From assembly GCF_038725785.1 (NCBI RefSeq), contig NZ_CP109796.1:62001-126000 (forward strand): a stretch of 64,000 bases of DNA. The letters are read 5' to 3'. Source of the DNA: Termitidicoccus mucosus (GTDB lineage Bacteria > Verrucomicrobiota > Verrucomicrobiia > Opitutales > Opitutaceae). Both the position numbers and the translations under genes were made by a program. Each line of letters opens with the position of its first letter. The stretch's first letter is position 1. The notes below the pieces were generated by a model. It ran no database searches. It was not told where the DNA came from and saw only the letters and a list, made by a program, of their open reading frames with translations. This document shows, in pieces, positions 40,263 through 56,107 of this stretch.

Positions 40263-43200
40263 CTACCTTTTTTTGCGCACGGAGCGCAGAAACGCGAGCG
40301 CGGCGAGCACGGCGAGGAACCACGGCGAGGGCGCGCCGCCGCCGCTGCCTTTGCTGGTCGGCGTGAAGGGCGGGAGGGTGCCGCTGGGCGGAAGCGTGCT
40401 GTCGTCCGCCGCGATCACCGAGAGGGTCGAAACCACGGCCGTGGCGCCGCCGAGTGTGATCCGGCGCACGGCGGTGTTGCCGATGTCGGCCACGTAAAGG
40501 TGGCTGCCCGAAACATCGAGGGCGAGCGCGGCGGGCTGGTTGAAGAGCGCGACCGAGCCGTCGCCGTCGCCCTGGCCGCTGACGCCGGGCAGGCCGGCCA
40601 GCGTCGTCACGACACCGGCGGCGGTGACGCGGCGGATGGTGTGGTTGCCGGTGTCGGCCACATAGAGGTTCGCCCCGGCGGCGTCGGCCACGATGGCCTT
40701 GGGCGAGGCGAAGAGCGCCTCGAGGCCCGTGCCGTCATCGGAGCCGTTCACACCGGGCGTGCCGGCGAGGGTGACAACCTCGTAGGGGGGCGGCTCGCGG
40801 TCGGCGCGGGCGGGGAGCGTGAGGCGGCGGATGGTGTGGTTGCCGGTGTCGGCGATGTAGAGGAACGAGCCCGAGACGGCCACCGCGCCGGGGTGATTGA
40901 AGCGGGCGGTGCCGCCGACCACGAAGGTGGTGCCGGACTCCACGAGGAGGGCGTCGCTGTCGCCGCTCTGGCCGGGCACGCCGGCGAAGGTGGCGACGGT
41001 GTTGCCGACGAAGACGCCGTTGTTGAGGGCGCGGGGGGTGAGGACGCGGATGGTGTGGTTGTTGGTGTCGGCCACGTAGGTGACACCGGTGGCGCGGTCG
41101 AAGGAGATGCCGTTGGGCGAGGCGAAGAGCGCGGCGTTGCCGATGCCGTCGCGGTTGCCGCGGGCGGCGGGGTCGCCGGCGAGGGTGAGCACGGCGAGGT
41201 CGCGGCCGACGCGGCGGACGGTGGCGTTGCCGGTGTCGGCCACGTAGAGGTTGCCCGCGGCGTCGATGGCGAGGGCGCCGGGCGAGTTGAAGGTGGACTG
41301 GCCGAAGGCGCCGTCCGCGCTGCCGGCGGCGCCGGGGATGCCGGCGTAGAGGGCGGCGGAACCGGTGGCGGTGACGCGGCGGATGATGCTGGCGGAGGCA
41401 TCGGAGACATAGACGTCGCCGAAGGCGTCCACGGCCACGCCGGAGGGCCAGGCGAAGACGACCGGGGTGACGGTGACCGCGTAGGGCTCGGTGGTGACGG
41501 AGCCGGTGGGGTTGGTGACGACGAGGCGGTATTGGCCGGCCGCGCCGCCGGTGACGTTCTGGATGGTGAGCGCGCCGGTGGCCGAGCCGGAGTAGGTGTC
41601 GTTGTCCCCGACGTTGACCCATTCGCCGGCGCCGGCGTCCCAGCGCTGCCATTGGTATGAAGTGACGGTGCCGGTGATGGCGGGGCGGAGGGTGATGTTT
41701 TTGCCGGAGACCACGGGGGCCGGGCCGCCGGTCTCGCCGGTGAAGCTGGGGGCGTCGCCGAAAGCAAGCGTGACGGGGGCGCTGACGACGGTCCTGCCGG
41801 TGGCGTCGGTGACGGCGACGGTGTAAACGCCGGTTTGCGGGCCTTGGATGTTGGCGAGGGTGAGGGTTTCGGAGGTGGCGCCGGTGATTTCAAAGTTGTT
41901 TCGCCGCCACTGATAGCCGGCGCCGTCCGGGACGGAGGCGGCAAGGGTGATGGTGGCGCCGGGGAAAAACACCTCAGGCAGCCCGGTGATGGCAACGGGG
42001 GCGGCCGGCGCGGGGTGGTCGGACCAGGCACCGGCGGTGTTGCCGGCGTATTGCTGGATGAGGGCGGGCACGTCGGCGGTGTCGGGGAGCGTGTAGGAAT
42101 AGGGCGGCACGGGGACGATGTCGGTGCCGGGGTCCTTGGTGCCGGTGGTGTTGTTGTAGGTGTTGTTGATGGTGCGGAAGGCGGCGGTGGCGTCGCTCTT
42201 GCCGACGGGGTCTTTCACGCCGTTGTAGTAGCTGTGCTCGATGAGGATTTGGGTGGTACCGCGGGCGTTGCTAGCGTAGGAGTTGCCGGCGCAACTGAAG
42301 TAATTGCCATACATGTGGGCTTGGGCGGCGCCGGCGGCGGGCATGCGCTGGTCGCAGCGGTCGGCCCACCAGTTGTGGTGCAGGGTGGCGGTGACGGGGG
42401 TGTCGGCGGGCGTGGCCTCGTTGCCGAGGATCATGGTGAAGCGGTGGTTGGCCTGCGTGGGGTAGTAGAACTTGCACCAGGAGACGGTGGCGTCGCGGAC
42501 GGTGTAGGTGAGGTCGCACATGCCATCGGCGCAGTCGTAGAAGGTGCAATGGGTGACGAGCACGCCGGTGGCGTTCTGGATGGTGACGCCGTCGCCGCCG
42601 TCCTCGTAGCGGGGGAACTCGGTCGTTGAGGGGATGGTGCCCGGGTTGGTGATGTTGAGGCCGCGGACGATGACGTTTTGGACATTATTAATGTTTACGC
42701 GTCCGATGATGGTGGCGGCGGCGTTGGCGCCTTGGAGGGTTTTGTTGGAGCCGACATCAACGCGTTTGCTGGAGGAGAGCGGACGCACGTCAATGGTGCC
42801 GCTGACGATGATGATGGCGGGGCCGGCGAGCTGGAGTTTGGCATTGAGGTCGGCGGCGGTGGTGACCTCGTAGGCAGGGCCACCGGCGCCGCCGGTGACG
42901 CCGCTGGCATAGCCGTCGCCGGTGACGGCGGGGCCGGTGAGATCGCGGACGGTGAGGACGGAGGCGGAGGTGGTGGCAGAGCCGGCCATGTTGGCGGCGA
43001 CGGCGTGGTAGGAACCGCTGTCGGACTCGGCGGCGGAGGTGATGGTGTAGGTGGCGGCGGTGGCGCTGGCGATGGCGGCGCCGTCCTTATACCATTGCCA
43101 CTCCGGCGCGGGAACGCCGCTGGCGGCGGCGGTGAAGGTGGCGGGCCAGCCGGCGAGGATGGCTTGCGAGGCGGCGGGTTGGGTGGTGATGGCGGGGGCG

Positions 43201-46200
43201 ACAGGGAGCTGGAGGGTGGCGGCGGCGCTAGTGACGGAGCCGGCGGTGTTGGCGACGACGACAGTGTAGCTGCCGGCGTCGGCGGCGGAGAAGGCGGTCA
43301 ACTGGAGCGTGGCGGTGGTGGCGCCGCTGATGTTGCCACCATCGGCAAGCGGCGTGACGGAGCCGTCCTTGAACCAGGCGTAGGATGGTGCGAAGGGCGC
43401 GGCGGCGATGCCGGTGTCGGCGGTGACGGTGAGGGTGGCGGTCGCGCCGGCGGAGGTGACGGCGGAGGCTGGCTGCGCGGTGAAGACGGGGGCGACGATG
43501 AGCGTGACGGCGTCGCTGGTGATTTCGCCGAGGGCGTTGGTGATTTTTACGCGATACCAGCCGGCGTCGGCGGTGGTGAGGCTGGCGAAGGCGAGGGCGG
43601 AGGCGGAGGACGCGCCGGGGATGTCGGCGAAGCCGGAGTCGGCGGCGGTGACGCTCTTTTGCCAGGTGTAGGTGAGCGGGGGTTGGCCGCCGGCGGCGAC
43701 GCTGAGGGAGCCAGTGTCGCCGGCGGCGCCGGTTTGGGCGGCGGGCTGGAGGACGATGGAGGGCGCGCCGGTGCCGGCGGTGAGGGCGAGGGCGCAGGGT
43801 TCGCTGATGACGGAGCCGCCGAGGTTGGTGACGACGCAGTCGTAGCTGCCGGCGTCGGCAGGCTGCGCGCCGGTGATGGCGAGCGAGGCGGTGTTGGCGG
43901 TGGGGTTGGTGGCGGTGTTGATGGGCACGCCGTCCTTGCGCCATTGGTAGGTGAGCGTCTCGTCGCCGAGGCCGGCGGCGATGACGGAGAGAGTGGTGTT
44001 GTCGCCCTCGGCGACGTAAGCGGCAGCGGCGGGCTGGGTGACGATGACGGCCTTCGGATAGGGAATGAGCTGGAAGCCGTTGATGTAAGTGTCGTTGCCC
44101 TTCGAGGCGGTGAAGGTGAGCTTGCTGTCGGTGTCGGCGATGGCGTGCAGGACGCCCCAGGGCTTTTCGGTGTTGTTGACGGAGTCGCCGGGCGTGGCGG
44201 CGGGCTTCGGGCCGATGATGCCATCGGCGCTGGCGAAAACCTCGCCGTTGCCGCTGGTGCCGTTGGTAAGGAGCCATGAGGCGGCGGGGGCGGCGATGTT
44301 GGCGTCGGCGAGGGTGAAACGGGCGCCCCTGCCGAGACTCGCGCCGTAGAAATAAACGAGGTAGTGCGTGCCGGCGGGCAGGCCGTCGAGGGTGAAGCGG
44401 AGGGTTTGCGAGCCGTCGTAAACGCGCCACGCCTGCGCCATCAAGGCGGCGGGGCCGAGCGTGGTGTTGGCGCCGGAGCCGTTGCTGGGCTCGACGCGGT
44501 CGCGGATGTTGCCGACGCCGAGGTGCATGGTGAGCGTCACGGGCGTGGGCAAGCCGTCGGGCGCGGTGAGCGCGGTGGCGCTGGCGGTGGAGAACGGGAG
44601 GAAGTCGCCGACCGAGGCGTTTTTGGCGTTCACCTCGTCGGCGGAGGCGGGCTTGAGGATTTTGTTCCACGTGATGCCGGGGAAGGGCGCGGCGGCGCTG
44701 TAATCCCAGCCGGAGCCTTGCGCGGCGATCTCGAAAGTCGTGGCGGCCGTGACCACGCCGGCGGCTGGGGCGGTATCGGTGGAGAGTTTTACGAAGACCG
44801 CTTGCGGGGCCGTGGCGCCCTCGACGGTGAGGGTGACGGTCGCGCTGGTAGTCTCGCCGCCCGCGCCGTTGATGACGCAATAATAGCTGCCGGCGTCGGC
44901 GGACGTCGGAATGGAAATGGTGAGCGTGGCGCCGGTGGCGCCGGGTATGGCGACGCCGTCCTTATACCACTGGTAGCCGGTCGCACCGGTGGCGGAGACG
45001 GAAAGGGTGACGGGGCTGCCGGCGGCGGTGATTTGCGAGACAGGCTGGGCGGTGATCGCGGGTGCGCCGCCGCCGTTCACGGTGAGCGTGACGGTGTCGC
45101 TGGTGGCGGAGCCCTGCGTGTTGGTGGCGGTGACGTAATAACTGCCGGCGTCGGAGGGCTGGGTGCCGATGATAGTGAAGGTGGCGTTGGTCGCGCTGAC
45201 GACGGGCGCGGCGTCCTTATACCATTGATACGAGGGCGCGGGATCGCCGGAGGCGGCGACGGTGAACGTCACGGGGTCACCGGCGTCCACGGTTTGCGAG
45301 GAGGGCTGCGTGGTGATGGCGGGCGCGGTAAGGGTGGCGCTGATGGTGACGGCGGCGGTGGCGCTGGCGGCGGAGCCGAGGCTGTTGGTGACGACGGCGT
45401 GGTAATCGCCGGAGTCGCCCGGCTGCGCGTTGGCGAGGGTGAGCGTGGCGGTGGTCGCGCCGCTGATGTTGCCGCCGTCGGCGACGGGCGTTGCGCCCTT
45501 ATACCATTGCCAGGTTCCGTCGGGCAGGCCGAAGGCCCCGGCGGCAAGCGTGATGGTCGCGCCGGGGGCGGCGGATTGCGACTGCGGTTGCGCAAGAATG
45601 CGCGGGGCGACGGTGGGGCGCCACGCGCCGATGGCGGAGGCGTAGTAGGGGTTGTTGCCGAAGATGGCTTCGATGGAGTAGTAGGCGGCAGTGAGTTTCT
45701 CGGCGGCAACGGCGACGCGGTTGAGGTGGCCGGACGGCGGCGCGAGCGAGGTGTCGTTCGCCGCCTGGGAGCCGGTGTAGTCGGGGTCGGTGGTGTTCAG
45801 CCAGTAGGCACCGGCGGCCTGACGCTCGGCGGGGGCGGGAGCGGCGCCGCCGGCGATGAGCGTGCTGCCGATTTCGATGGCACGGCAGGTGTTTTCCCGG
45901 TTGTCCCATTCAGACCAGCCCTTGAGGGAAATGTGGTCGTCGAGCTGGCAGTTGATGTAGGCGGTGTGGCCGTCGGGATACCACGGACGCATGAGCGTGC
46001 AACTGCCGGCGGTGACATCGTAGGGATGGCCGGTCGCGACGCGGCCCTTGAGCAGGCGGCAGTCGAGAAAGACGAGGCCGTAGGGATTGTTGTAGTTTGT
46101 GGAGGGCGCGGCAGGGGAGGTGCCGTCGCGAATGGTCACGAGGTCGCAGTGGTCGAACAGTGCGGTGCCGCCGTCGTAGATGAAATCGACGCTGCCCCAA

Positions 46201-48845
46201 ATCTCGCAGTCGCGGAAATAGGACACGCTGCCGTCGCGCAGGCAGAGTGTGTCCTGCCAGCCCTTGAGGAGGACGTTGTCGAAAACGAGGCGCTTGTTCA
46301 CGGAGGCGAGGGCGCGCTGCTGGCCGGCGGTTTCGCCGGCGGTGTTCTCGATGGTGAGGTTTTCCATGCGCAAATCGTCCACATAGGCGATGAAGGCGGC
46401 GGACATCGGGCCGCTGACGTTGCACCAGCCGTGGGAGAGGACGGTGTCGGTGCGGGCGGCGCCCGTGCCCTTGAGCGTGACGAAGCCGCGGTTCTGGCGG
46501 AGCGCAAGGTTTTCGTAATAGAAGCCGGGCTGGATATTGATGGTGTAGGGCGTGGCGGCGGTGTTGTTTTGCGGCACTTGGTCGAGCGCGGCCTGCACGG
46601 TGGTGAAATCGCCGGTGCCGTCGGCCGCGACGGTGATGACGCGGGAAGCGAGGTCGGGCGCGGCGGCGCGGGTGGAGAAGCGCCACGCGGTCGCACTGCT
46701 CACGCCGGGCCAGGTGCCGCCGGCGGTGTCGAAGATCACGCCGGGCTCGACGGTGACATAGTAGGTTTTGCCGTAGGCAAGACCGAAGCCGCCGGGACGG
46801 GTGATGAGCACCATGCCGTCTGCGTGGATGGACACGGGTTGGTAATGAATCGTCGTGAGATCCTGAACGACGCCGGTTTTGACGTAGCCGCCGTGGTCGG
46901 CGTCGCCGTAGTTCACAGTTTCAAGCGCGGAGAGGTCGATGGTATCGACTATGGAGTCATCGTCGGCATCGCGGATGATGACTCTGCCAATGTCACCGCG
47001 AGCAGGCGTGCCGCCGGTGAAGGTGAGTTTGAGCGGGGTGTCGGGATTGACGCCGCTCGCACCGTTGGCGGGCCAGAGCGCGGCGGTCATGGCGGCGGGC
47101 GTGCCGAGATAAACGGGATCGCTGGTGACGGAGCCGGCGGCGTTGGCGACGGTGACGGTGTAGTTGCCGGAGTTGGCGGCGGAGAAGGAGGCGAAGCTGA
47201 GCGTGGCGGTGATCGCGCCGCTGATGCCGGCGCCGTCGGTGACGGTGACGCCGTCGCGTTTCCACACGTAGGTGGGCGCGAAGGGCGCGAGGGCGGGGCC
47301 GGCGTCGGCGGTGACGCTGAGCGAGGCGGCGCCGCCGGGCGTGACCACGGCGCCGGCAGGCGGCGTGGTGATGACCGGAGCGACGGTGAGCGTGACGGCG
47401 TTGCTGGTGATGTCGCCTGCGGTGTTGGTGATTTTCACGCGATACCAGCCGGCGTCGGCGGTGGTGACGCCGGCGAACGCGAGCGAGGCGGTGGCGGCGC
47501 CGGTGATGCCGGCGCTGTCGGCGAGATCGGTGAAGCCGGTGTCGGCTCCGCTGGTGCTTTTTTGCCAGACGTAGGCAAGCGGGCTGGTGCCGTTGGCCGT
47601 GACGGCGAGCGTGGCGGCGGCACTGGTGTCGGCGGTTTGGGCGGTGGGCTGCGCGCCGATGCTGGGGGCGACGGCGCCGGCGGTGACGGTGAGGGCAGTG
47701 GCGCTGGTGGGGGTGTCGCCGCCGTAGTTGGTGACGACGCAGTCGTAGCTGCCGGCGTCGTCGGCGGCGAGGCCGGTGAGGGTGAGGGCGGCGGTGGTGG
47801 CGCTGAGATTGACGGCGGGGTTGATGTTGGTGCCGTCTTTGCGCCATTGGTAGGTAAGCACGTCGTCGGAGTCGAAGCCGGCGGCGGCGATGGTGAGCGT
47901 GACGCTGCCGCCGAGCGAGGCGGTGGTGGCGGCGGGGAGGTCGGTGGTGATGGTCGCCTTCGGATAGGGGATGAGTTGGAAGCCGGCGATGTAAACGCTG
48001 CCGTCGAATTTCGCGGCGGTGAAGGAGAGCCGGCCGGAGGAGTCAACGAGCGCGGGGAGGTAGCCCCAGGGTTTGACGGTGGTCTTGGTGTCGTCGTTTT
48101 GCGGGGCGGGGGCGACGGGGGCGATGTCGCCGGTGACGCCGTCCACGGCGAAGACATGGGTGTCGGCGTTGTTGCTGGAGGCCCTGATGGCGACGAAGGA
48201 TCCGGAGGTCAGGAGGTTGGCGGGGGCGAGGTCGAAGCGGGCGTTGCCGTTGTTGAGCGCGCCGTAGAAGTAGGCGAGGTAATGGCTGTTGGCAGGGAGG
48301 CCGGCGAGGGTGAGGGTGAGGGTGTTGCCATTGCCGCCGTTGTAGAGACGCCAGAGGTTGTTGACCACATCGGAGGGCATGAGGGTGTTGCTGTAGCCGG
48401 AGATGTAGCCATCGCTGGGTTCGGTTCGGTTGCCGCCGGTTTGGAGGGTTTCGCTTACGTAAATGCTCGCGGTGAGGGTGACGCCGGAGGCACTGCCGTC
48501 GGGGGCAAAGAGGGCGATGGCGTCGGCGGTTTTAAGGGGACCGAAGGTGCCGCTGACGCCGCCGTTGTCGGTTCCGGTGGGGATGCGGTCGTTGGCGTGG
48601 GGGCGGAGGATTTTGTTCCATGTGTTGCCGGCGTAGGGGGCGGCGCCGCTGTAGGCCCAACCGGAACCTTGGTTGGCGACTGTGATGGTCGCGGCGGTAG
48701 CGACGACGGCGCCAGCGGTGCCGGCTTGGTCGCGGGAGAGTTTGACGAAGACGGCGGGGTTGTCGGCGCGTGCGACGGGCGAGAGCGCGAGCCCGGCGAA
48801 CGCGGCGGCGAGGAGGAGGAAAAGGAGGACGGGCGCGGGTTTCAT
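40263..48845 (-). CDS. Probable second start: bifunctional pectinesterase-pectate lyase surface protein
   Basis: From ATG 48843-48845 the protein would have 2860 residues with its own signal peptide ending SPVARA. Modules in order: unnamed beta-module (to GFQLIPYPKATIT), Ig-like domains, a Big_5-like domain (NPDTPLKLTFTGG), a CE8 pectinesterase (about DNA 46640-45640; VAADGTGDFTTVQ, WQDTL, VDFIYDGG, MRPWYPDG), Ig-like domains, a second unnamed module (44805-44060), Ig-like domains, a PL1 pectate lyase (about 42925-42040; HHNWWADRCDQRMP), Ig-like domains, NHL repeats and the GGGAPSP tail. It would de-esterify and cleave homogalacturonan at the cell surface. It is an alternative reading of part of the longer frame. 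Confidence 0.7.
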   Translation of the reverse strand: MKPAPVLLFLLLAAAFAGLALSPVARADNPAVFVKLSRDQAGTAGAVVATAATITVANQGSGWAYSGAAPYAGNTWNKILRPHANDRIPTGTDNGGVSGTFGPLKTADAIALFAPDGSASGVTLTASIYVSETLQTGGNRTEPSDGYISGYSNTLMPSDVVNNLWRLYNGGNGNTLTLTLAGLPANSHYLAYFYGALNNGNARFDLAPANLLTSGSFVAIRASSNNADTHVFAVDGVTGDIAPVAPAPQNDDTKTTVKPWGYLPALVDSSGRLSFTAAKFDGSVYIAGFQLIPYPKATITTDLPAATTASLGGSVTLTIAAAGFDSDDVLTYQWRKDGTNINPAVNLSATTAALTLTGLAADDAGSYDCVVTNYGGDTPTSATALTVTAGAVAPSIGAQPTAQTADTSAAATLAVTANGTSPLAYVWQKSTSGADTGFTDLADSAGITGAATASLAFAGVTTADAGWYRVKITNTAGDITSNAVTLTVAPVITTPPAGAVVTPGGAASLSVTADAGPALAPFAPTYVWKRDGVTVTDGAGISGAITATLSFASFSAANSGNYTVTVANAAGSVTSDPVYLGTPAAMTAALWPANGASGVNPDTPLKLTFTGGTPARGDIGRVIIRDADDDSIVDTIDLSALETVNYGDADHGGYVKTGVVQDLTTIHYQPVSIHADGMVLITRPGGFGLAYGKTYYVTVEPGVIFDTAGGTWPGVSSATAWRFSTRAAAPDLASRVITVAADGTGDFTTVQAALDQVPQNNTAATPYTINIQPGFYYENLALRQNRGFVTLKGTGAARTDTVLSHGWCNVSGPMSAAFIAYVDDLRMENLTIENTAGETAGQQRALASVNKRLVFDNVLLKGWQDTLCLRDGSVSYFRDCEIWGSVDFIYDGGTALFDHCDLVTIRDGTSPAAPSTNYNNPYGLVFLDCRLLKGRVATGHPYDVTAGSCTLMRPWYPDGHTAYINCQLDDHISLKGWSEWDNRENTCRAIEIGSTLIAGGAAPAPAERQAAGAYWLNTTDPDYTGSQAANDTSLAPPSGHLNRVAVAAEKLTAAYYSIEAIFGNNPYYASAIGAWRPTVAPRILAQPQSQSAAPGATITLAAGAFGLPDGTWQWYKGATPVADGGNISGATTATLTLANAQPGDSGDYHAVVTNSLGSAASATAAVTISATLTAPAITTQPSSQTVDAGDPVTFTVAASGDPAPSYQWYKDAAPVVSATNATFTIIGTQPSDAGSYYVTATNTQGSATSDTVTLTVNGGGAPAITAQPVSQITAAGSPVTLSVSATGATGYQWYKDGVAIPGATGATLTISIPTSADAGSYYCVINGAGGETTSATVTLTVEGATAPQAVFVKLSTDTAPAAGVVTAATTFEIAAQGSGWDYSAAAPFPGITWNKILKPASADEVNAKNASVGDFLPFSTASATALTAPDGLPTPVTLTMHLGVGNIRDRVEPSNGSGANTTLGPAALMAQAWRVYDGSQTLRFTLDGLPAGTHYLVYFYGASLGRGARFTLADANIAAPAASWLLTNGTSGNGEVFASADGIIGPKPAATPGDSVNNTEKPWGVLHAIADTDSKLTFTASKGNDTYINGFQLIPYPKAVIVTQPAAAAYVAEGDNTTLSVIAAGLGDETLTYQWRKDGVPINTATNPTANTASLAITGAQPADAGSYDCVVTNLGGSVISEPCALALTAGTGAPSIVLQPAAQTGAAGDTGSLSVAAGGQPPLTYTWQKSVTAADSGFADIPGASSASALAFASLTTADAGWYRVKITNALGEITSDAVTLIVAPVFTAQPASAVTSAGATATLTVTADTGIAAAPFAPSYAWFKDGSVTPLADGGNISGATTATLQLTAFSAADAGSYTVVVANTAGSVTSAAATLQLPVAPAITTQPAASQAILAGWPATFTAAASGVPAPEWQWYKDGAAIASATAATYTITSAAESDSGSYHAVAANMAGSATTSASVLTVRDLTGPAVTGDGYASGVTGGAGGPAYEVTTAADLNAKLQLAGPAIIIVSGTIDVRPLSSSKRVDVGSNKTLQGANAAATIIGRVNINNVQNVIVRGLNITNPGTIPSTTEFPRYEDGGDGVTIQNATGVLVTHCTFYDCADGMCDLTYTVRDATVSWCKFYYPTQANHRFTMILGNEATPADTPVTATLHHNWWADRCDQRMPAAGAAQAHMYGNYFSCAGNSYASNARGTTQILIEHSYYNGVKDPVGKSDATAAFRTINNTYNNTTGTKDPGTDIVPVPPYSYTLPDTADVPALIQQYAGNTAGAWSDHPAPAAPVAITGLPEVFFPGATITLAASVPDGAGYQWRRNNFEITGATSETLTLANIQGPQTGVYTVAVTDATGRTVVSAPVTLAFGDAPSFTGETGGPAPVVSGKNITLRPAITGTVTSYQWQRWDAGAGEWVNVGDNDTYSGSATGALTIQNVTGGAAGQYRLVVTNPTGSVTTEPYAVTVTPVVFAWPSGVAVDAFGDVYVSDASASIIRRVTATGSAALYAGIPGAAGSADGAFGQSTFNSPGALAIDAAGNLYVADTGNATVRRVGRDLAVLTLAGDPAARGNRDGIGNAALFASPNGISFDRATGVTYVADTNNHTIRVLTPRALNNGVFVGNTVATFAGVPGQSGDSDALLVESGTTFVVGGTARFNHPGAVAVSGSFLYIADTGNHTIRRLTLPARADREPPPYEVVTLAGTPGVNGSDDGTGLEALFASPKAIVADAAGANLYVADTGNHTIRRVTAAGVVTTLAGLPGVSGQGDGDGSVALFNQPAALALDVSGSHLYVADIGNTAVRRITLGGATAVVSTLSVIAADDSTLPPSGTLPPFTPTSKGSGGGAPSPWFLAVLAALAFLRSVRKKR

Positions 48846-51800
48846 AAAGGCGAGGGTGGGGGCGGTGTGGCACGGAGTCGCGGACGCCTTGGTCATGGCG
48901 CAGGAATTTTGTTTGGGATTCGGCCGGCGGCAGACGCGTCCGGAAGAAGTGCCAGCCATGCGAAGACGCGTGAGCGACTGGGAGCGCCGGCTTCCAGCCG
49001 GCAGACGGAGTCTGTCCACGGCCATGCCTGCCGACACCACGGGCGGGACGCCCGTGAAACGGGCCGGCAGGATGCCGGCGCTCCCAGTCGCTGGCGCGTC
49101 TTCGCGGTGTCTCATGGCTTTCTGTGGGGAAAATGAACCGGCGGCGCGAAGGAGGCGGGCGCGGAGTTTTTTCAGCAGGCCGAGCAACGCGAGCGCGGCG
49201 AGGAAGAGCGGGCTGGGCGCGCCGCCGCCAAACTCGCCGGACCCGTCGCCGGAACCGGCGGGCGGGATGTCCGGCTGCTCACCGGAGCCGCCACCCGGGC
49301 CCGGGGTCTCCGGCGGGATCGGATCGGGGCCTTGGTCGGGGACGAGCGTGCTGACCACGCCGTCGGGCGTGATCTTGCGCACGGCGGCGTTGCCGGTGTC
49401 GGCCACATAGACGTTGCCGGCGGGGTCAACGCTCACGTCGCGCGGCTGGTTGAAGAGGTTGTGGGGCAGCCCGTCGAGGGAGGTTTCCGCGCCGGGGCCG
49501 TCCTGGTGGCCCGCGATGCCGTTGAGGCCGGCGAGGGTGCTGACGGTGACGGTGGAGCCGTTGGGGCCGGAGAGGGAGATTTTGCGGATGACGTTGTTGC
49601 CGGTGTCGGCCACGTAAATCGCGCCGGCGTCGTCCACGGCAAGGCTGGCGGGGGCGTTGAACTGGGCCGCGGAGCCGTCGCCGTCCGCGTGGCCGGCGAC
49701 GCCGGTCAGGCCGGCGAGGGTGGAAACGTCGTTTTGCCTGATGCGGGTGCGGGTCGTGCCGCTGGTGACGGGGTCGCGGTCGAGATACCAGGTGAGGGAG
49801 ATTTTGCGGATGGCGTTGTTGCCCGTGTCGGCCACGTAGAGGACGGTGGTGGTGGAGGAGGCCGTGAGGGGGATGGCGGTGCCGGTGGCGGCGAAGACGA
49901 CCGGGGAGGCGGCGATGCCGCCGGGCGAGTTGAAGCGGGCCAGGGTGTTGCCCTGGCTGTCGGTGGTGATGCCGCCGGCGGAGCCGGGATCGTTGGCGAC
50001 GCCGGCGAGCGTGGTGACATCGAAGGTGGTGGGGGTGACCCGGCGGATGACGTGGGCCATCCTGTCGGCCACGTAGAGGCTGCCGGCGGAGTCGTGGGTG
50101 ATGCCCGCCGGGGCGGTGAAACTGGCGGCGGCGCCGGTGCCGTCGGCGTTGCCGGTGGCACCGGGCGAGCCGGCGAGGGTGGTGACCTCGCCGGTGGCGC
50201 GGAGGGCGCGGAGGGTGTGGTTGCCGGTGTCGGCAAGATAGACGACGTTGGCCGGGCCGATGGCCGCGCCGGAAGGGCCGTTGAAGGCGGCCTGGCCGTA
50301 ATAGCCGTCGGCGCTGCCGGCGACGCCGGGCTGCCCGGCGAAGCGGATGGCGGTGCCGGTGGCGAGGGTGAACTGGTGGAGGAGGTTGGCGGTGTCGTCG
50401 GCGGCATAGACCCGCCCGGCGCGGTCGGCGGCGACCGCCACGGGGTGCGCGATCATGGGCGCGGCCACGGCGAGGGGAATCGCGCCGCCCTCGGTGGTGC
50501 CGAGGTTGTTGGCGGAGACGACGCGATACAGGCCGGCCTCGGCGGCGGTGGCGCCGGTGATGGTGAGCGTGTCGGTGGTCGCGCCGGAGTAGGCGCCGCC
50601 GTCGGTGATGTCGGTCCAGGTGACGCCGTTGTCGTGCGAAACCTGCCATTTATACCACAGCAGGGGAATCTCGGTGTAGATGTCGCTGTAGAGACGGATG
50701 GCGCCGCCCGGCGCGACGGTCTGGCGGCCCGGCGGGGTGATGATGGGCGGGGCGTATTCGACATACAAATACACGGTGTCGCTGGTGAGCGCGTCGGCCT
50801 CCTTTTGCATCACGTCCATGACTTTCACGCGGTAGTAGCCGGTGTCGGCGCGGCGGAGGAAGGGGAGGTCGAGCGTGCTGGTGGTATCGCGGGTTTTCCT
50901 GACGGTGAGGATGTCCTCGAAGTCGCCCGTGGCGGTGCCGCCGGCGGGGGTGGCGGTGGCGGGGTCGCACGCCTGCTTCTGCCAGATGTAGGTGAAGGGG
51001 GGAGTGCCGGCGACGGCGACGGAGAGGGCGGCGGCGTCGCCCACGGTGGCGGCGTCGGAAAGCGGCTGCCGCGTGATGGAAAACGGATCTGCGTGGTCGA
51101 TGACGGTGAGCGCGCAGGGATCGGAGAAGGCGGAGCCCCCGGCGACGTTGGTGACTTTCAGGCGGTAGAGGCCGGCGTCGGCGTATTGCGTGTCATTGAT
51201 GATCAGTATGCTGGTGATTTTCTTGGCAGGCTCGGCGGGGGTTTCCGGGTCGGCGGGCAGCGGCGGATCGCGGTCGAGGGTGGCAATGAGGCGCAGATCG
51301 CCGGCGGGGATGTCGACCCAGGCGACACCGTTGTCGTGGGAGACCTGCCACTGATAGGCGAGTGGGTTTTGGTCGGCGTCGGCGAAGTGGGGCAGGTCGC
51401 GGGCGATGGCGGCTATTTCGGTAGCGACGTTGAGCACACCGACGGTTTCGGGCTCGGGCTGCCCGATGATGGCGGGAGCGGGATAGGGGATTAGCTGGAA
51501 ACCGGAATACTGACGGCGCCCGCCGAGAGCGGAGGTGTCGGTGCGGAAGGTGAGCTCGCCGTCGGAGGTGGAGATGGCATGCATGGCCCCCCAAATGGTG
51601 TTGGCACCGGACACGGCGTCGGTGTTGGCCGCGGCGCCGGGGATAATGGTTTTGTTGCCGGCTTCGTCGAAGGTGAACAAGCTGCAGACACCAGCGTGGC
51701 CAGCCAAATCAACGAAGGAGGTGGGTAGTTGCTCGGCGGCGTTGTCGCTGGGATAGGTGAAGGAGGATGTCTTGCCCGCCGGGAAATTGGCCGGGTGGAG

Positions 51801-52388
51801 GATGTATTTTCCGCCTTGGTTGTTGGTACTGGCATAGCAATAGAGCAAATAATGCGTGTCGGAGGCCAGGCCGGTGAATTTGAAGCGCGCATAAGCAGTG
51901 CCTGCATAAATGCGCCAGCAACTGCCGAGGAGTTCCTTCACGTCCAATGCCTCGCTGATGCCGATGGTTCCAGGTTCGTTGCGCTCATGTGTGCCAACCA
52001 AGACGCCCGTGAGCCTGACTGGGCTGAGGGCACCGTCCGCACCGTAAAGCTGGACGTTGGCAAGTGAGTCGAAGACGAAGGGCTGGGACTCGGTGTAAGT
52101 GCCCGCCGCAGTTGGAGTTGATGTCGGCGTATACACCCTGTTCCATGTGGTTCCCGGTGCGGTGGCGGCCGCACTGTAGGCCCAGCCGCCGCCTGGCGCG
52201 TCAATGACATAGGCGGAAGGGGGCGTACCTGCGGGGGTCGCTCTCGTCAATGTGACGAACACAGGGACGGGGCTGAACTCGGCGGCGAATGTCGGCGCGC
52301 CCAAGGTGATGAGCGAGGCCAGCGTTGCTAGAAGCAAGGGGAAACGAATGCGGTGGAAATGAATGCCCGTTGATGGTGTAGTTTTCAT
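40263..52388 (-). CDS. Giant modular surface protein: apparent in-frame fusion of two secreted proteins
   Basis: One frame of 4041 codons runs from ATG 52388 to a stop at 40263. Residues 1-36 are a signal peptide. About 37-313 is an unnamed beta-module ending GFQLIPYP, then Ig-like repeats and about six NHL repeats (VYLADTGNHTLRALRATGEV type). At about 1050-1080 comes GGGAPSPLFLAALALLGLLK with a basic tail, a C-terminal sorting signal. Instead of a stop the frame continues through a dispersed palindromic repeat (48950-49106). It then enters a second signal peptide (MKPAPVLLFLLL, residue 1182) and a second protein that ends with GGGAPSPWFLAVLAALAFLR. It is probably two genes whose boundary was overwritten by the repeat. 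Whether a full-length chain is made is unknown. Confidence 0.75.
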   Translation of the reverse strand: MKTTPSTGIHFHRIRFPLLLATLASLITLGAPTFAAEFSPVPVFVTLTRATPAGTPPSAYVIDAPGGGWAYSAAATAPGTTWNRVYTPTSTPTAAGTYTESQPFVFDSLANVQLYGADGALSPVRLTGVLVGTHERNEPGTIGISEALDVKELLGSCWRIYAGTAYARFKFTGLASDTHYLLYCYASTNNQGGKYILHPANFPAGKTSSFTYPSDNAAEQLPTSFVDLAGHAGVCSLFTFDEAGNKTIIPGAAANTDAVSGANTIWGAMHAISTSDGELTFRTDTSALGGRRQYSGFQLIPYPAPAIIGQPEPETVGVLNVATEIAAIARDLPHFADADQNPLAYQWQVSHDNGVAWVDIPAGDLRLIATLDRDPPLPADPETPAEPAKKITSILIINDTQYADAGLYRLKVTNVAGGSAFSDPCALTVIDHADPFSITRQPLSDAATVGDAAALSVAVAGTPPFTYIWQKQACDPATATPAGGTATGDFEDILTVRKTRDTTSTLDLPFLRRADTGYYRVKVMDVMQKEADALTSDTVYLYVEYAPPIITPPGRQTVAPGGAIRLYSDIYTEIPLLWYKWQVSHDNGVTWTDITDGGAYSGATTDTLTITGATAAEAGLYRVVSANNLGTTEGGAIPLAVAAPMIAHPVAVAADRAGRVYAADDTANLLHQFTLATGTAIRFAGQPGVAGSADGYYGQAAFNGPSGAAIGPANVVYLADTGNHTLRALRATGEVTTLAGSPGATGNADGTGAAASFTAPAGITHDSAGSLYVADRMAHVIRRVTPTTFDVTTLAGVANDPGSAGGITTDSQGNTLARFNSPGGIAASPVVFAATGTAIPLTASSTTTVLYVADTGNNAIRKISLTWYLDRDPVTSGTTRTRIRQNDVSTLAGLTGVAGHADGDGSAAQFNAPASLAVDDAGAIYVADTGNNVIRKISLSGPNGSTVTVSTLAGLNGIAGHQDGPGAETSLDGLPHNLFNQPRDVSVDPAGNVYVADTGNAAVRKITPDGVVSTLVPDQGPDPIPPETPGPGGGSGEQPDIPPAGSGDGSGEFGGGAPSPLFLAALALLGLLKKLRARLLRAAGSFSPQKAMRHREDAPATGSAGILPARFTGVPPVVSAGMAVDRLRLPAGSRRSQSLTRLRMAGTSSGRVCRRPNPKQNSCAMTKASATPCHTAPTLAFMKPAPVLLFLLLAAAFAGLALSPVARADNPAVFVKLSRDQAGTAGAVVATAATITVANQGSGWAYSGAAPYAGNTWNKILRPHANDRIPTGTDNGGVSGTFGPLKTADAIALFAPDGSASGVTLTASIYVSETLQTGGNRTEPSDGYISGYSNTLMPSDVVNNLWRLYNGGNGNTLTLTLAGLPANSHYLAYFYGALNNGNARFDLAPANLLTSGSFVAIRASSNNADTHVFAVDGVTGDIAPVAPAPQNDDTKTTVKPWGYLPALVDSSGRLSFTAAKFDGSVYIAGFQLIPYPKATITTDLPAATTASLGGSVTLTIAAAGFDSDDVLTYQWRKDGTNINPAVNLSATTAALTLTGLAADDAGSYDCVVTNYGGDTPTSATALTVTAGAVAPSIGAQPTAQTADTSAAATLAVTANGTSPLAYVWQKSTSGADTGFTDLADSAGITGAATASLAFAGVTTADAGWYRVKITNTAGDITSNAVTLTVAPVITTPPAGAVVTPGGAASLSVTADAGPALAPFAPTYVWKRDGVTVTDGAGISGAITATLSFASFSAANSGNYTVTVANAAGSVTSDPVYLGTPAAMTAALWPANGASGVNPDTPLKLTFTGGTPARGDIGRVIIRDADDDSIVDTIDLSALETVNYGDADHGGYVKTGVVQDLTTIHYQPVSIHADGMVLITRPGGFGLAYGKTYYVTVEPGVIFDTAGGTWPGVSSATAWRFSTRAAAPDLASRVITVAADGTGDFTTVQAALDQVPQNNTAATPYTINIQPGFYYENLALRQNRGFVTLKGTGAARTDTVLSHGWCNVSGPMSAAFIAYVDDLRMENLTIENTAGETAGQQRALASVNKRLVFDNVLLKGWQDTLCLRDGSVSYFRDCEIWGSVDFIYDGGTALFDHCDLVTIRDGTSPAAPSTNYNNPYGLVFLDCRLLKGRVATGHPYDVTAGSCTLMRPWYPDGHTAYINCQLDDHISLKGWSEWDNRENTCRAIEIGSTLIAGGAAPAPAERQAAGAYWLNTTDPDYTGSQAANDTSLAPPSGHLNRVAVAAEKLTAAYYSIEAIFGNNPYYASAIGAWRPTVAPRILAQPQSQSAAPGATITLAAGAFGLPDGTWQWYKGATPVADGGNISGATTATLTLANAQPGDSGDYHAVVTNSLGSAASATAAVTISATLTAPAITTQPSSQTVDAGDPVTFTVAASGDPAPSYQWYKDAAPVVSATNATFTIIGTQPSDAGSYYVTATNTQGSATSDTVTLTVNGGGAPAITAQPVSQITAAGSPVTLSVSATGATGYQWYKDGVAIPGATGATLTISIPTSADAGSYYCVINGAGGETTSATVTLTVEGATAPQAVFVKLSTDTAPAAGVVTAATTFEIAAQGSGWDYSAAAPFPGITWNKILKPASADEVNAKNASVGDFLPFSTASATALTAPDGLPTPVTLTMHLGVGNIRDRVEPSNGSGANTTLGPAALMAQAWRVYDGSQTLRFTLDGLPAGTHYLVYFYGASLGRGARFTLADANIAAPAASWLLTNGTSGNGEVFASADGIIGPKPAATPGDSVNNTEKPWGVLHAIADTDSKLTFTASKGNDTYINGFQLIPYPKAVIVTQPAAAAYVAEGDNTTLSVIAAGLGDETLTYQWRKDGVPINTATNPTANTASLAITGAQPADAGSYDCVVTNLGGSVISEPCALALTAGTGAPSIVLQPAAQTGAAGDTGSLSVAAGGQPPLTYTWQKSVTAADSGFADIPGASSASALAFASLTTADAGWYRVKITNALGEITSDAVTLIVAPVFTAQPASAVTSAGATATLTVTADTGIAAAPFAPSYAWFKDGSVTPLADGGNISGATTATLQLTAFSAADAGSYTVVVANTAGSVTSAAATLQLPVAPAITTQPAASQAILAGWPATFTAAASGVPAPEWQWYKDGAAIASATAATYTITSAAESDSGSYHAVAANMAGSATTSASVLTVRDLTGPAVTGDGYASGVTGGAGGPAYEVTTAADLNAKLQLAGPAIIIVSGTIDVRPLSSSKRVDVGSNKTLQGANAAATIIGRVNINNVQNVIVRGLNITNPGTIPSTTEFPRYEDGGDGVTIQNATGVLVTHCTFYDCADGMCDLTYTVRDATVSWCKFYYPTQANHRFTMILGNEATPADTPVTATLHHNWWADRCDQRMPAAGAAQAHMYGNYFSCAGNSYASNARGTTQILIEHSYYNGVKDPVGKSDATAAFRTINNTYNNTTGTKDPGTDIVPVPPYSYTLPDTADVPALIQQYAGNTAGAWSDHPAPAAPVAITGLPEVFFPGATITLAASVPDGAGYQWRRNNFEITGATSETLTLANIQGPQTGVYTVAVTDATGRTVVSAPVTLAFGDAPSFTGETGGPAPVVSGKNITLRPAITGTVTSYQWQRWDAGAGEWVNVGDNDTYSGSATGALTIQNVTGGAAGQYRLVVTNPTGSVTTEPYAVTVTPVVFAWPSGVAVDAFGDVYVSDASASIIRRVTATGSAALYAGIPGAAGSADGAFGQSTFNSPGALAIDAAGNLYVADTGNATVRRVGRDLAVLTLAGDPAARGNRDGIGNAALFASPNGISFDRATGVTYVADTNNHTIRVLTPRALNNGVFVGNTVATFAGVPGQSGDSDALLVESGTTFVVGGTARFNHPGAVAVSGSFLYIADTGNHTIRRLTLPARADREPPPYEVVTLAGTPGVNGSDDGTGLEALFASPKAIVADAAGANLYVADTGNHTIRRVTAAGVVTTLAGLPGVSGQGDGDGSVALFNQPAALALDVSGSHLYVADIGNTAVRRITLGGATAVVSTLSVIAADDSTLPPSGTLPPFTPTSKGSGGGAPSPWFLAVLAALAFLRSVRKKR
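48950..49106. repeat. Dispersed composite palindromic repeat, copy 2, inside the giant frame
   Basis: Arms 48960-48990 (CGAAGACGCGTGAGCGACTG and so on) and 49074-49104 pair over 31 bp with two mismatches. The interior contains CGGCTTCCAGCCG, GGGCGGGACGCCC and GCCGGCAGGATGCCGGC palindromes. It matches the copy at 9027-9150 in reverse. It lies exactly between the sorting signal of the first surface protein and the signal peptide of the second. Confidence 0.85.
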
Positions 52389-52436: not shown

Positions 52437-55400
52437 TCAGAACGTCCCCTTGATGCCGAAATAGACAAAAGCGCCGTATTTTTGGTATTCCCAAGTCCAG
52501 TTGGGATTGTGGAGGTAGGTGCGGAAGGGCTCGTTGGTCAGGTTCTTGGCCTCGACGTAGAAACTGTAGCGCCGGTAAAAGGTGTAGGACATGGCGGCGT
52601 CGAAGGTGCCGCGAGCATCGCGCCAGAGGTAGCCGAAGGCAGCGGGGTCGACCTTGCCCGGCTCGCGATCGTTGAAGAAGCGAAACATGGTGCCATCATA
52701 GAAACTGTCGGCCCAGTTGTAGGACACGCTGGCGTTCAGCCGGGAGCCCCTGTAGCTGAGACTGAGCTTGAGCTTGCGCGGCACCACCCGATAGGCGGGC
52801 ATGCTTTTGGGCATGGTTTCGAGCCCGGTGAGTGGCGCGGTGCTGTTGAAGCTGGAGTTGGTCTCGCCTTCCTGGTAGGTGTAGGCCGCGTAGAGCGAGA
52901 AGTTTTTCAGGCGTTCGTGGATGAAGCCGAGCCGTTGCGAGAAGGATGCCTCGATGCCCCAATTTTTCTGGCCGCCAATGTTCACGGGGCGCTCTAAGCT
53001 GGCGCCGACATAGTTGCGGAAGTCGTAGTCATACACGCCGTTTTCCGTGATGGTCTCGGTGACGTTAGCGGTGTAGTTTTGCACGTCCTTGTAATAATAG
53101 CCGATGGAGGCGGAGCCGCCACCCTTCATGTAATACTCGAGCGCCACGTCGTAGTTGGTGTGATAGATGGGCTTGAGCGAGGGGTTGTTCATATCGATGG
53201 CATAGGCTCCGCTCGAATCGACATTGACGGTGTAGCCGGGCATGAGGCGATCGAAGGGCTGACGGGAGATGGATTTGTTATAGCTGGCGCGGGCGATGAA
53301 GTTGGCGGTGAGGTTGTATTTGAGCTGCACGTTTGGAAACCAGTCGGCGTAGGACTTGTCCACGGCGGCGGTATTGGCGTAACGCAGGCGGGTGAGTTCG
53401 AGCGCCTGCGCCTGGGAGACCGAGTAATTGGTCACAAGGCTTTGGCCGCTCACTCCGGTGAGGGGGTTGATGGCGGTGTCGTTGTAAGCGGCGGTGATGT
53501 CGGCGTAGCCGTAGCCGCGGACGTAATCCATGAGCATTTCGGAGGCGCGCGCGGCGGTGGCGTCGTCGTTGGCGACGGGGCCGCGTCCGTATTGATCGGT
53601 GCGCTCGTAGCGCATGCCCAGGAGGGCGCTGAAGCGGCCGAGGCGGATGTTGAACATGCCGTAGGCGCCGGCGACGCGCTCGCGGGAGAACTTGTCGCCG
53701 CCGAGCTCGGTCTCGGTGCGCCAGACGACGTCTTCGGTGAATTTTTCCGGATGCTCGCGGAAATACTGGTCAATGTGCGGGAGGCTGAAGTAAGGCACGG
53801 GCGGATAGGGGCCGACGGTCGCGTCAAGGTCGGGGGATTTCACTTTTTCGAGCATGTCCTGAAGTTCGGCGGTGGTGCCGTTAAAGAACCAGTGGGACTG
53901 ACCGTTTTTGTCGGTGTGACGCTCTTGCTCGCGGTAGAGGCCGCCAGCCTGAACATACATGGGGATGCGGGTGAAGAAGCTGCGCCTGGCGTCCAGCTTC
54001 AGGGTGGAAAACTTGTCCTTGGTGGAGAGCCAGCGCCCGTTGCTCACCTGGAACGGGCCGTAGTCGCCGCGCGCCATTTGCACAGTGGGGTAGGTGCGAT
54101 TGGTGCTTACGCCGGGGATGACAACGGTGCCGGCACCGCCTTCGCCGGGGACGTCGCGCCCGGTGCCGGGCACGGTGACGAGGGCGCTCTGGCTGTTGAC
54201 GCGACTCACGTAATTGGCGAGGTCATACATATCCGGCCCGTGGAGCTGCGTGATGAGCGGGTAGGCGGCGCCGGGTGCGTGGTCGATGCGGTAATCAATG
54301 CCGCGCAGGTAGGCGGTGGCGGAGTTGATGGCCATGCCGTCCTGCGTGGTGTAATGGTTGGTAGAGAGCGAGACGCCAGCGTCGAGGTTGATTTTCCAGC
54401 CAGCGCGCTTGTATTCCATGCCGCCAGCGAACGTGGAGCCGCGTCCGATTTTGTTGAGGACTTCGAGGCCTGTAGTGACGGCGGCACCCTTGCTGTTGGC
54501 AGCGTCTTGGACAGTGTTGGCACGGATGTCGGCACCGGCGGTATAGACAGTGGTGACGTAGGGTGACCAGACGGGGATTTGGTAGCCCTGGGAGTTGGTG
54601 ATCCAATGGTCGGGGGCGATGCCGGTGGTGCTTCCCCCCTCGCTGGCGGCCTCTGAAGGGCGCTCGCCGCCGGGCAAGGCGAGGGTCTGCCGTCCGGTCC
54701 GGATGAGGCTGGTGTTGACTTGGCTGTTCAGGTAGAGCTTGACGGACGGCGTGAGCTTGTAATCGAGGTTGAGCGAGAAGGAGGTGCGGCGGGTGAAGCC
54801 CGAGTCGTAGCCGTAATTAAAGTCGCGGCTGTAGATGCCCGTCTCTGCGCCGGAAGCGAGGACATCGTCAAGGTAGCCGCCGTAGTTGCTGCGCTCATAG
54901 AGCGAATAACGGCGGTGGCGCATGCCCGATGAGACGTTGTAAAAATCGTTGTAATTGGCGGTAAACACGACACCGAGGCGGTTGTTCAGGAAAGAGTTCG
55001 CATAGTAGAGATTCCCCACCGGGCGGGTGCTGAGCTCGTCGCCAGTCGAGCCGGCGCGGCGCCCGAGGCGGAGGTTTTCGGTGTTAACGACCCCGCCAGC
55101 CTGAAAACTGATGCGACGTTGTTTGAGGTTGAAGGCGCTTTTGCTGACGAGGTTGATCGAGCCGCCGCCGGAATCGGCGGACATGGCGGCGGTCGGCGTC
55201 TTATAGACCTCAATGGTCTCATAGTTTTGGATGGAAATTTGGTCGAGATTGAAGGCGCGCGAGTTGCCGTCCGTGCCGCCGGCATTGGCCATGCGCAGGC
55301 CGTCGGAGGTAACGCTGGCCATTTGCGAGTCCATGCCGCGAATCATGATGTCGCGCGGGTCGTTGCCACTATCCATGATGTCGATGCCGGGAATGTTGCG

Positions 55401-55958
55401 GAGGAAGTCGCCGAGGTTGGCGCCGGCTACGTTGGGAAACTCGTCCGAGGAGATCATGTTCACGAGCACATCGGAGGCTTTTTGCTGGGCGATGGAGGCC
55501 ATGCGACCCTCGCGCTCGCCGGAGACAACGAAGGCCTCCAGCTTGATGATTTCACCAGCGGCGGCGGCGCGCGGGCCGTAGTCGGCGCTGGTGAGCGCGA
55601 TGTCGCGGGTGACGGTCTCACCCGCGGTGACGGTAACGGCGGCGGTCTGGCTATCGAGCCCGCCATAGTTGACCACGATCGCGCGTTCACCGACGGGCAG
55701 GACGAGGATGAACGAGCCATCGGTGTCAGTGAAGGCACGCTGACGGGAATCGCGGTCAACGACCTCGGCGCCCGCAAGGTATTTGAGCGTGGCGGCGTTG
55801 GAGACTCGGCCGGTGACGGTGCCGGTGGCGGCGTTTTGCGCGACCGCGGGCAGGGCGCAAAGCAGGACGGCCAGGACGGCCGCGAGCGGCCTGCTCCACG
55901 CAATGCAACGGATGCATTGACGACGATCCAGGGCGGGGAGGAATTTATGTGTGGTCAT
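52437..55958 (-). CDS. TonB-dependent outer-membrane receptor
   Basis: The 1173-residue protein starts at MTTHKFLPALDRRQ (ATG 55956-55958), followed by a signal peptide ending near PAVAQ. Next is a carboxypeptidase-regulatory-like domain (TGTVTGRVSNAATLKYLAGA), then the plug (KLEAFVVSGEREGR, NLGDFLRNIPGIDI, DPRDIMIRGMDSQMASVT) and a 22-strand barrel ending in the aromatic FVYFGIKGTF. It imports oligosaccharides using TonB energy. There is no SusD-like partner, as usual outside Bacteroidota. It is directly upstream of the giant pectin-degrading protein on the same strand. A copy of the shared 15-bp motif lies 150-164 bp upstream. Confidence 0.92.
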   Translation of the reverse strand: MTTHKFLPALDRRQCIRCIAWSRPLAAVLAVLLCALPAVAQNAATGTVTGRVSNAATLKYLAGAEVVDRDSRQRAFTDTDGSFILVLPVGERAIVVNYGGLDSQTAAVTVTAGETVTRDIALTSADYGPRAAAAGEIIKLEAFVVSGEREGRMASIAQQKASDVLVNMISSDEFPNVAGANLGDFLRNIPGIDIMDSGNDPRDIMIRGMDSQMASVTSDGLRMANAGGTDGNSRAFNLDQISIQNYETIEVYKTPTAAMSADSGGGSINLVSKSAFNLKQRRISFQAGGVVNTENLRLGRRAGSTGDELSTRPVGNLYYANSFLNNRLGVVFTANYNDFYNVSSGMRHRRYSLYERSNYGGYLDDVLASGAETGIYSRDFNYGYDSGFTRRTSFSLNLDYKLTPSVKLYLNSQVNTSLIRTGRQTLALPGGERPSEAASEGGSTTGIAPDHWITNSQGYQIPVWSPYVTTVYTAGADIRANTVQDAANSKGAAVTTGLEVLNKIGRGSTFAGGMEYKRAGWKINLDAGVSLSTNHYTTQDGMAINSATAYLRGIDYRIDHAPGAAYPLITQLHGPDMYDLANYVSRVNSQSALVTVPGTGRDVPGEGGAGTVVIPGVSTNRTYPTVQMARGDYGPFQVSNGRWLSTKDKFSTLKLDARRSFFTRIPMYVQAGGLYREQERHTDKNGQSHWFFNGTTAELQDMLEKVKSPDLDATVGPYPPVPYFSLPHIDQYFREHPEKFTEDVVWRTETELGGDKFSRERVAGAYGMFNIRLGRFSALLGMRYERTDQYGRGPVANDDATAARASEMLMDYVRGYGYADITAAYNDTAINPLTGVSGQSLVTNYSVSQAQALELTRLRYANTAAVDKSYADWFPNVQLKYNLTANFIARASYNKSISRQPFDRLMPGYTVNVDSSGAYAIDMNNPSLKPIYHTNYDVALEYYMKGGGSASIGYYYKDVQNYTANVTETITENGVYDYDFRNYVGASLERPVNIGGQKNWGIEASFSQRLGFIHERLKNFSLYAAYTYQEGETNSSFNSTAPLTGLETMPKSMPAYRVVPRKLKLSLSYRGSRLNASVSYNWADSFYDGTMFRFFNDREPGKVDPAAFGYLWRDARGTFDAAMSYTFYRRYSFYVEAKNLTNEPFRTYLHNPNWTWEYQKYGAFVYFGIKGTF

Positions 55959-56107
55959 TTGTATATTGAATGCCGGGGCATGCGACGGTGGACGGGGTGG
56001 TGACTGGCAGGGGAATGGGACGGGGATGGGGATGCGAAAAAATGCAGTGATGTTGATTGCGATTTTGACCGTAGAGAAAAACATGCCATTGCGACAATCC
56101 GGTCAAT

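Follow-up and report, generated by a model that had tools for sequence, protein, structure and literature searches.

How a single open reading frame comes to hold two apparently complete surface proteins, each with its own export and sorting signals, is the question raised by a 4041-codon frame in Termitidicoccus mucosus (Verrucomicrobiota; Opitutaceae). The stretch analyzed here (the window) is 64,000 nt long, positions 62,001 to 126,000 of contig NZ_CP109796.1. An earlier sequence-only reading proposed that two surface-protein genes, here designated A and B, had been fused in frame by a dispersed palindromic repeat lying between them. The stop-free frame of two units is upheld by the present analysis; the repeat as its cause is not. 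By sequence comparison the A-B fusion is conserved, and it is part of a recurring though rare architecture. The frame is probably translated as one precursor, to be cut at an internal GlyGly-CTERM tail by rhombosortase and at a second signal peptide by signal peptidase I, with two exported proteins as the result. The features concerned are the following:

40263-52388, minus strand: open reading frame for protein A, linker, and protein B; 4041 aa, stop-free, homologous to a single 4949-aa frame in the related locus L213

49167-49229, minus strand: internal GlyGly-CTERM tail of A, a putative rhombosortase-type sorting signal (TIGR03501 match)

48846-49166, minus strand: linker, predicted cytoplasmic loop, largely repeat-derived, net charge about +18

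48936-49118, no strand assigned: palindromic element resembling a REPIN (paired repetitive extragenic palindromic, or REP, sequences); ends approximate, set by eye from the arm alignment

48765-48845, minus strand: predicted second signal peptide, the start of B; ATG at 48845 (codon 1182), cleavage site by eye between A-R-A and D-N

45897-46637, minus strand: pectinesterase domain in B (PF01095 domain match)

42231-42776, minus strand: pectate lyase domain in B (PF00544 domain match)

40281-40343, minus strand: terminal GlyGly-CTERM tail of B (TIGR03501 match)

Unit A (codons 1 to ~1085) consists of a signal peptide, immunoglobulin (Ig)-like domains, NHL repeats, and a GlyGly-CTERM tail, GGGAPSPLFLAALALLGLLKKLRARLLR, which starts near codon 1054 of the 4041. 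Unit B, from codon 1182, has its own signal peptide, Ig-like domains, pectinesterase, pectate lyase, NHL repeats, and a second GlyGly-CTERM tail. The interval 48845-49230, to which the sequence-only reading drew attention, runs from the start of B to the start of the tail of A. That reading considered the internal tail to be of the same type as the terminal one, and both do exceed the TIGR03501 (GlyGly_CTERM) cut-off of 15.5 bits as peptides: the internal tail scores 16.4 bits (15.4 alone and 16 with its neighbors in the genome search), and the terminal tail 19.5 bits (17.4 in the genome search). The complete second signal peptide that it placed after the internal tail is also found: the segment following the Met at 48845, MKPAPVLLFLLLAAAFAGLALSPVARA and then DN, is signal-peptide-like, with the cleavage site judged by eye. 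A and B are predicted to be exported surface proteins, B with pectin-digesting domains, encoded as one chain.

In the window genome (G000) as a whole there are 28 TIGR03501 matches at E-values up to 10, with 15 over the cut-off. A stop codon follows within 20-37 codons in 25 of the 28; the three tails lacking such a stop all run on into a second signal peptide. The internal tail of A is one of these, and does not have the extreme C-terminal position by which GlyGly-CTERM signals are known. The tails L112 and L122 run into TonB-dependent receptors, in frames of 3675 and 3189 aa (L132 and L133).

The same A-B fusion is found in a second genus, g3. In G125 (locus L209, on one contig) counterparts of A and B, 51 and 47% identical respectively, are consecutive in one frame; in G126 (L213) a single open frame of 4949 aa covers A and B in full, its domains in the order seen in window B, pectinesterase and then pectate lyase. 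The L209 linker between the two hydrophobic segments is GRVRTGSLRKHFMKFT and the L213 linker is SRVPGMRKRFMKIKA; both are basic and only 15-16 residues long, and the exact repeat core is found in neither locus. Two proposed explanations for the window frame can be weighed on this evidence. A sequencing or assembly error, as the earlier reading noted, could mask a stop between A and B: of the two other same-strand frames across the linker one does have stops, including one within a repeat arm, and an open frame in itself is not improbable (quantified below). Two other genomes, however, have this join open too, and the architecture recurs (17 joins, below), so that such an error is extremely improbable. 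That insertion or expansion of the repeat removed the stop of A, and so created the fusion, was the history the earlier reading preferred, and the repeat does occupy much of the long window linker; but L209 and L213 are fused without the repeat core, and independent fusions in two genera would be required, making this origin highly improbable. The fusion is, most simply, inherited, with the REPIN-like element as a later in-frame passenger in the linker; fusion would then have preceded repeat. Orthologs that are continuous without the repeat had been named in advance as evidence against the earlier reading. The g3 frames come close to this description, but the internal tail and the signal peptide are present there too.

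Two other candidates were rejected as A-B loci. L034 gave a long, weak alignment with stops, and on reading has a tail, then a stop, and no B; a scan of genome contigs with B gave one weak match, from an unrelated organism.

The repeat itself is dispersed and palindromic, as first described. Its arms in the window copy (48960-49002 and 49063-49105) are 43 nt long and 91% complementary. The exact core, TGGGAGCGCCGGC, has 73 sites in the genome, compared to two for a reversed control pattern, and paired inverted arms are found in the window copy and in many other genomic copies. Another copy lies within the window:

9029-9158, minus strand: further copy of the dispersed repeat (L007)

When 50 distinct arms were aligned, the core was found to be conserved, and a subset including the window copy to have longer matching flanks; by eye there is no clear GTAG or CGTC tag across these arms. 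The genome has seven Y1_Tnp matches, one of which was examined for flanking repeat arms. This one, at G000:C1:1041019, is flanked by two perfect 40-nt copies of the arm, inverted relative to each other. The window repeat thus appears to be a REPIN-like element with a partner resembling the REP-associated tyrosine transposases (RAYTs). Passages of PMC3733652 report that GTAG-tagged REP repeats are highly enriched in O. terrae, also of the Verrucomicrobia. Comparison of the repeat region with phage records gave no match. Codon usage over codons 1090-1181 of the 4041-codon frame is non-coding-like, at -0.43 bits per codon, lower than in any of the 377 windows of the two halves, as expected of repeat DNA.

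Two further observations concern repeats. The segment L134:2393-3102 (G000:C1:1040892-1041601) is a RAYT-like Y1 transposase gene with flanking arms from the window-repeat family. In G127, as a parallel to the window, the linker of another fused frame contains in frame a different inverted repeat (L207:8037-8171), with 25-nt arms that are 92% complementary and a length of 135 nt end to end.

The window fusion is not an isolated case. If an internal join is taken to be a GlyGly tail, a positive loop, and a signal peptide in one frame, there are at least 17 of these in seven of 252 family genomes, representing three genera (g1, g3, and g58): five in G000, one in G002, two in G004, three each in G125 and G126, two in G127, and one in G142. 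The count is a lower bound from a chosen subset, in which mainly the matches in long frames were read. Four of the joins link two surface proteins: the window pair, L209, L213, and L206 (G142), a frame of 3961 aa containing NHL repeats, two GlyGly tails, and, in its second half, a glycoside hydrolase family 28 (GH28) domain. The other 13 link a surface protein to a TonB-dependent receptor. The 252-genome search, for which a model of seven joins was used, had matches in 60 genomes and added further joins in g3 and g58; among 30 loci listed from it, 23 tails are terminal and five internal, with two (L184 and L191) left unclassified by the script. The tails of three further long frames (L208, L210, and L211) are terminal. 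Full-length, stop-free matches to the L133 join, among those listed from 57 genomes, lie in the window genome itself, in G002, of the same genus, and at two places in G004 (g3). A screen of 23 genomes with the PF07715 plug domain yielded no very long frames among the best matches listed.

In a 39-row receptor tree, its unfused rows limited to loci of earlier searches, the 13 fused rows need six state changes, at least five of them by well-supported branches. The 13 fall into about five groups, three of which combine members from g1 and g3. L217, a neighboring pair in G125 that is not fused, has a GlyGly tail, a stop, six codons, and, with no change of frame, the Met of the next exported protein. 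This arrangement shows how such fusions could begin, and is a possible pre-fusion step.

The joins share a common anatomy. All 17 have a Gly-rich motif and helix, then a loop (3-114 residues, net charge +3 to +18), then a second hydrophobic helix, the limits of helices and loops being those of a simple hydropathy scan. An A-x-A type cleavage site can be recognized by eye in 14; the other three have V-F-S or A-L-S before QQ. Under the positive-inside rule a positively charged loop should be cytoplasmic, and so therefore should the loops of these joins. Over nine fused pairs (which are not independent, several rows being used more than once), differences at codon positions 1/2/3 are 0.26/0.20/0.44 in the internal tail and 0.29/0.19/0.46 in the mature part, with the linker and signal peptide more variable at 0.50/0.37/0.58. 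Conservation is similar in the internal tail and the mature part, and the tail shows coding periodicity.

Four joins (L132, L161, L162, and L200) have no ATG, GTG, or TTG from the tail helix to the core of the second helix; in these the receptor would be without an ordinary start carrying a complete signal peptide. The scan covered these three codons, and rarer starts such as CTG could still occur. The recurrence of the joins, with four of the 17 lacking these start codons, favors one translated precursor.

Genes for the rhombosortase that would cut the tail are present. Two rhombosortase genes (TIGR03902) of the window genome are over the cut-off, with 103.8 and 100.4 bits, and G004 likewise has two. 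In V. cholerae, according to PMC6219818, VesB is cut by rhombosortase at a GlyGly-CTERM-type tail; a moiety containing glycerophosphoethanolamine is attached to the C-terminus so formed, and type II secretion follows. PMC13393428 describes the tail as functional on unrelated proteins. On the minus strand of L135 (G000:C1:3593896-3596498), one of the two window-genome rhombosortase genes comes after, in this order, a gene ending in a GGGGGGALES-type tail and a copy of the repeat.

From the signal anatomy we infer a topology for the precursor, its two cuts, and equal amounts of its products. Sec export would carry A into the periplasm; its GlyGly-CTERM helix would halt in the inner membrane, and the arginine-rich linker would remain cytoplasmic. 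The signal peptide of B would then re-enter the membrane and lead B out. Rhombosortase would cut at the internal GlyGly tail, anchoring A, and signal peptidase I would cut after the second signal peptide, freeing B, which would later meet rhombosortase at its own terminal tail. A short two-helix remnant would be left over, and the linker, including its REPIN-coded part, would be discarded, which would explain the tolerance of a repeat there. A single translation event would supply A and B in equal amounts. One frame encoding two predicted exported proteins, and conserved across genera, is what is looked for in a polyprotein, and it is what the window and its g3 relatives present.

The fusion might instead be genuine but never cut at the tail, A being tethered in the inner membrane by a two-helix hairpin. 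The coding constraint on the fused tail is also compatible with a permanent anchor. However, in each of the 13 receptor joins the second half retains a signal peptide whose site is of the A-x-A type or similar, TonB-dependent receptors belong in the outer membrane, and rhombosortases are present in the window genome; an uncut fusion is very unlikely.

The sequence-only reading had offered a choice between a giant fusion and two products from separate starts. One precursor is the favored member of this pair, and a second start at 48845 is possible for the window pair. In the second case B would be translated from its own ATG, and the open linker frame would have little or no function. A number of observations weigh against a single precursor, or against its generality, and several of them bear on this point. 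The Met with which the signal peptide of B begins is conserved in position in the window, L209, and L213, the three A-B cases, and the second unit of L206 also begins with Met, with GGAGG ~10 nt upstream; together these make internal starts possible. At least one possible start codon is present in 13 of the 17 joins, the window pair having its ATG. In G006, B stands alone, with its own signal peptide and no A before it. The non-coding-like codon usage of the window linker fits a repeat origin, and it also fits a lack of function. Finally, an open linker frame is not improbable by chance (21% for 97 codons, in an independent-base model), so that the argument for fusion rests on the relatives; conservation without the repeat in another genus is what lifts the open frame above chance. 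Set against these, three genomes, from two genera, have no stop between A and B, so that any ribosome completing A must continue into B, and the four joins lacking ATG, GTG, and TTG speak against separate starts. There is no clear Shine-Dalgarno sequence before the window B Met, but most of 12 starts compared also lack one, so this context is uninformative. On balance a separate start for B is unlikely, though slightly less so in view of the GGAGG before the L206 Met.

The remaining adverse points concern the distribution and processing of the proposed polyproteins. The join is rare, occurring in seven of the 252 genomes among the matches listed, and the model used for that search held signal-peptide columns, which introduces a bias. 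A search of 57 genomes with the A-B junction found no A-B join, and neither A nor B had a match in two same-genus genomes (72 and 68% complete) that might have preserved the pre-insertion state. The L132 join had no full-length match among those listed from 56 other genomes. Two copies are interrupted or broken: L209 has a frame change inside B near the pectinesterase (L209:10005-10014, in G125), either a mutation or a sequencing error, and L166 (G000:C1:1583000-1595000) is a broken surface protein-receptor fusion, with tail and receptor in different frames and the second signal peptide gone. L166 nests among the fused receptors in the tree, and was excluded from the 17 as a broken copy. With regard to processing, the other two internal tails of the window genome are under the TIGR03501 cut-off (L112 at 15.2 bits, L122 at 12.7). 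Rhombosortase is over the cut-off in 11 of 19 genomes searched, and is thus commoner than the join; three of the seven join genomes were included, G000 and G004 with matches and G002 (68% complete) without. Passages of PMC3237569 suggest that the extreme C-terminal location may help rhombosortase to choose its targets.

With these points considered, a precursor cut at both signals is still the preferred account of the window frame. A broader proposal is evenly balanced: that in this lineage a GlyGly-CTERM tail within the chain, with a signal peptide after it, serves generally as a cassette for cutting and export. Rhombosortase and signal peptidase would split giant polyproteins within the inner membrane, yielding a glycan-binding or glycan-cutting surface protein and a partner, often its TonB-dependent receptor, in equal amounts.

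Parts of this arrangement have parallels in known systems. The palindromic elements of Rickettsia are likewise palindromic repeats tolerated in frame in protein-coding genes; the window insertion differs from them in that its linker would probably be lost once the precursor is processed. Among bacterial precursors, the Bradyrhizobium cytochrome b/c1 (fbcH) polyprotein is divided by signal peptidase, which cuts at a signal sequence within the chain; unlike the window fusion, it yields two bioenergetic subunits, and it is not known to have a sorting tail at the join. Bunyavirus glycoprotein precursors have an internal signal peptide between two glycoproteins; they differ from the window fusion in being viral and eukaryotic, and are not known to involve a GlyGly tail or rhombosortase. 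They are alike in that one precursor of two glycoproteins is processed co- and post-translationally, as described in part of PMC7926653. The GlyGly-CTERM/rhombosortase system (TIGR03501, TIGR03902; VesB) shares with the window fusion the Gly-rich motif, hydrophobic helix, basic residues, and rhombosortase genes in the genome; the known tail, according to PMC3237569, is at the extreme C-terminus, whereas here it is internal, with a signal peptide and another exported protein after it. As in REPIN/RAYT systems, paired inverted repeats are dispersed through the genome and there is a Y1-type transposase gene, here between two perfect 40-nt arm copies, but the window copy is in frame within a coding linker, and the GTAG or CGTC tag given in PMC3733652 is not clear by eye.

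The aspect that appears to be new, judging from sequence, is the use of GlyGly-CTERM tails, described as end-of-protein signals, inside polyproteins; a full-text search of a limited collection of papers gave none listed as describing internal GlyGly-CTERM tails. Cleavage of the internal tails would make rhombosortase an enzyme that splits polyproteins, and gene callers would then be misled by such giant frames, whether they trust them or split them. The receptor joins would also suggest a simple one-to-one coupling of a surface enzyme to an outer-membrane receptor, and the linker of a join would be a place where a mobile repeat can insert in frame at little cost.

The A-B frame sits in a pectin-use locus (window 28043-62129) that contains a LacI regulator, GH95, a TonB-dependent receptor, the A-B frame, GH28, GH3, two transporters (MFS and SSF), GH43, and GH88. 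The receptor is the nearest neighbor on the upstream side:

52437-56084, minus strand: stand-alone TonB-dependent receptor, directly upstream of the A-B frame

A receptor is also directly before A in L209, and groups in the tree with that of the window.

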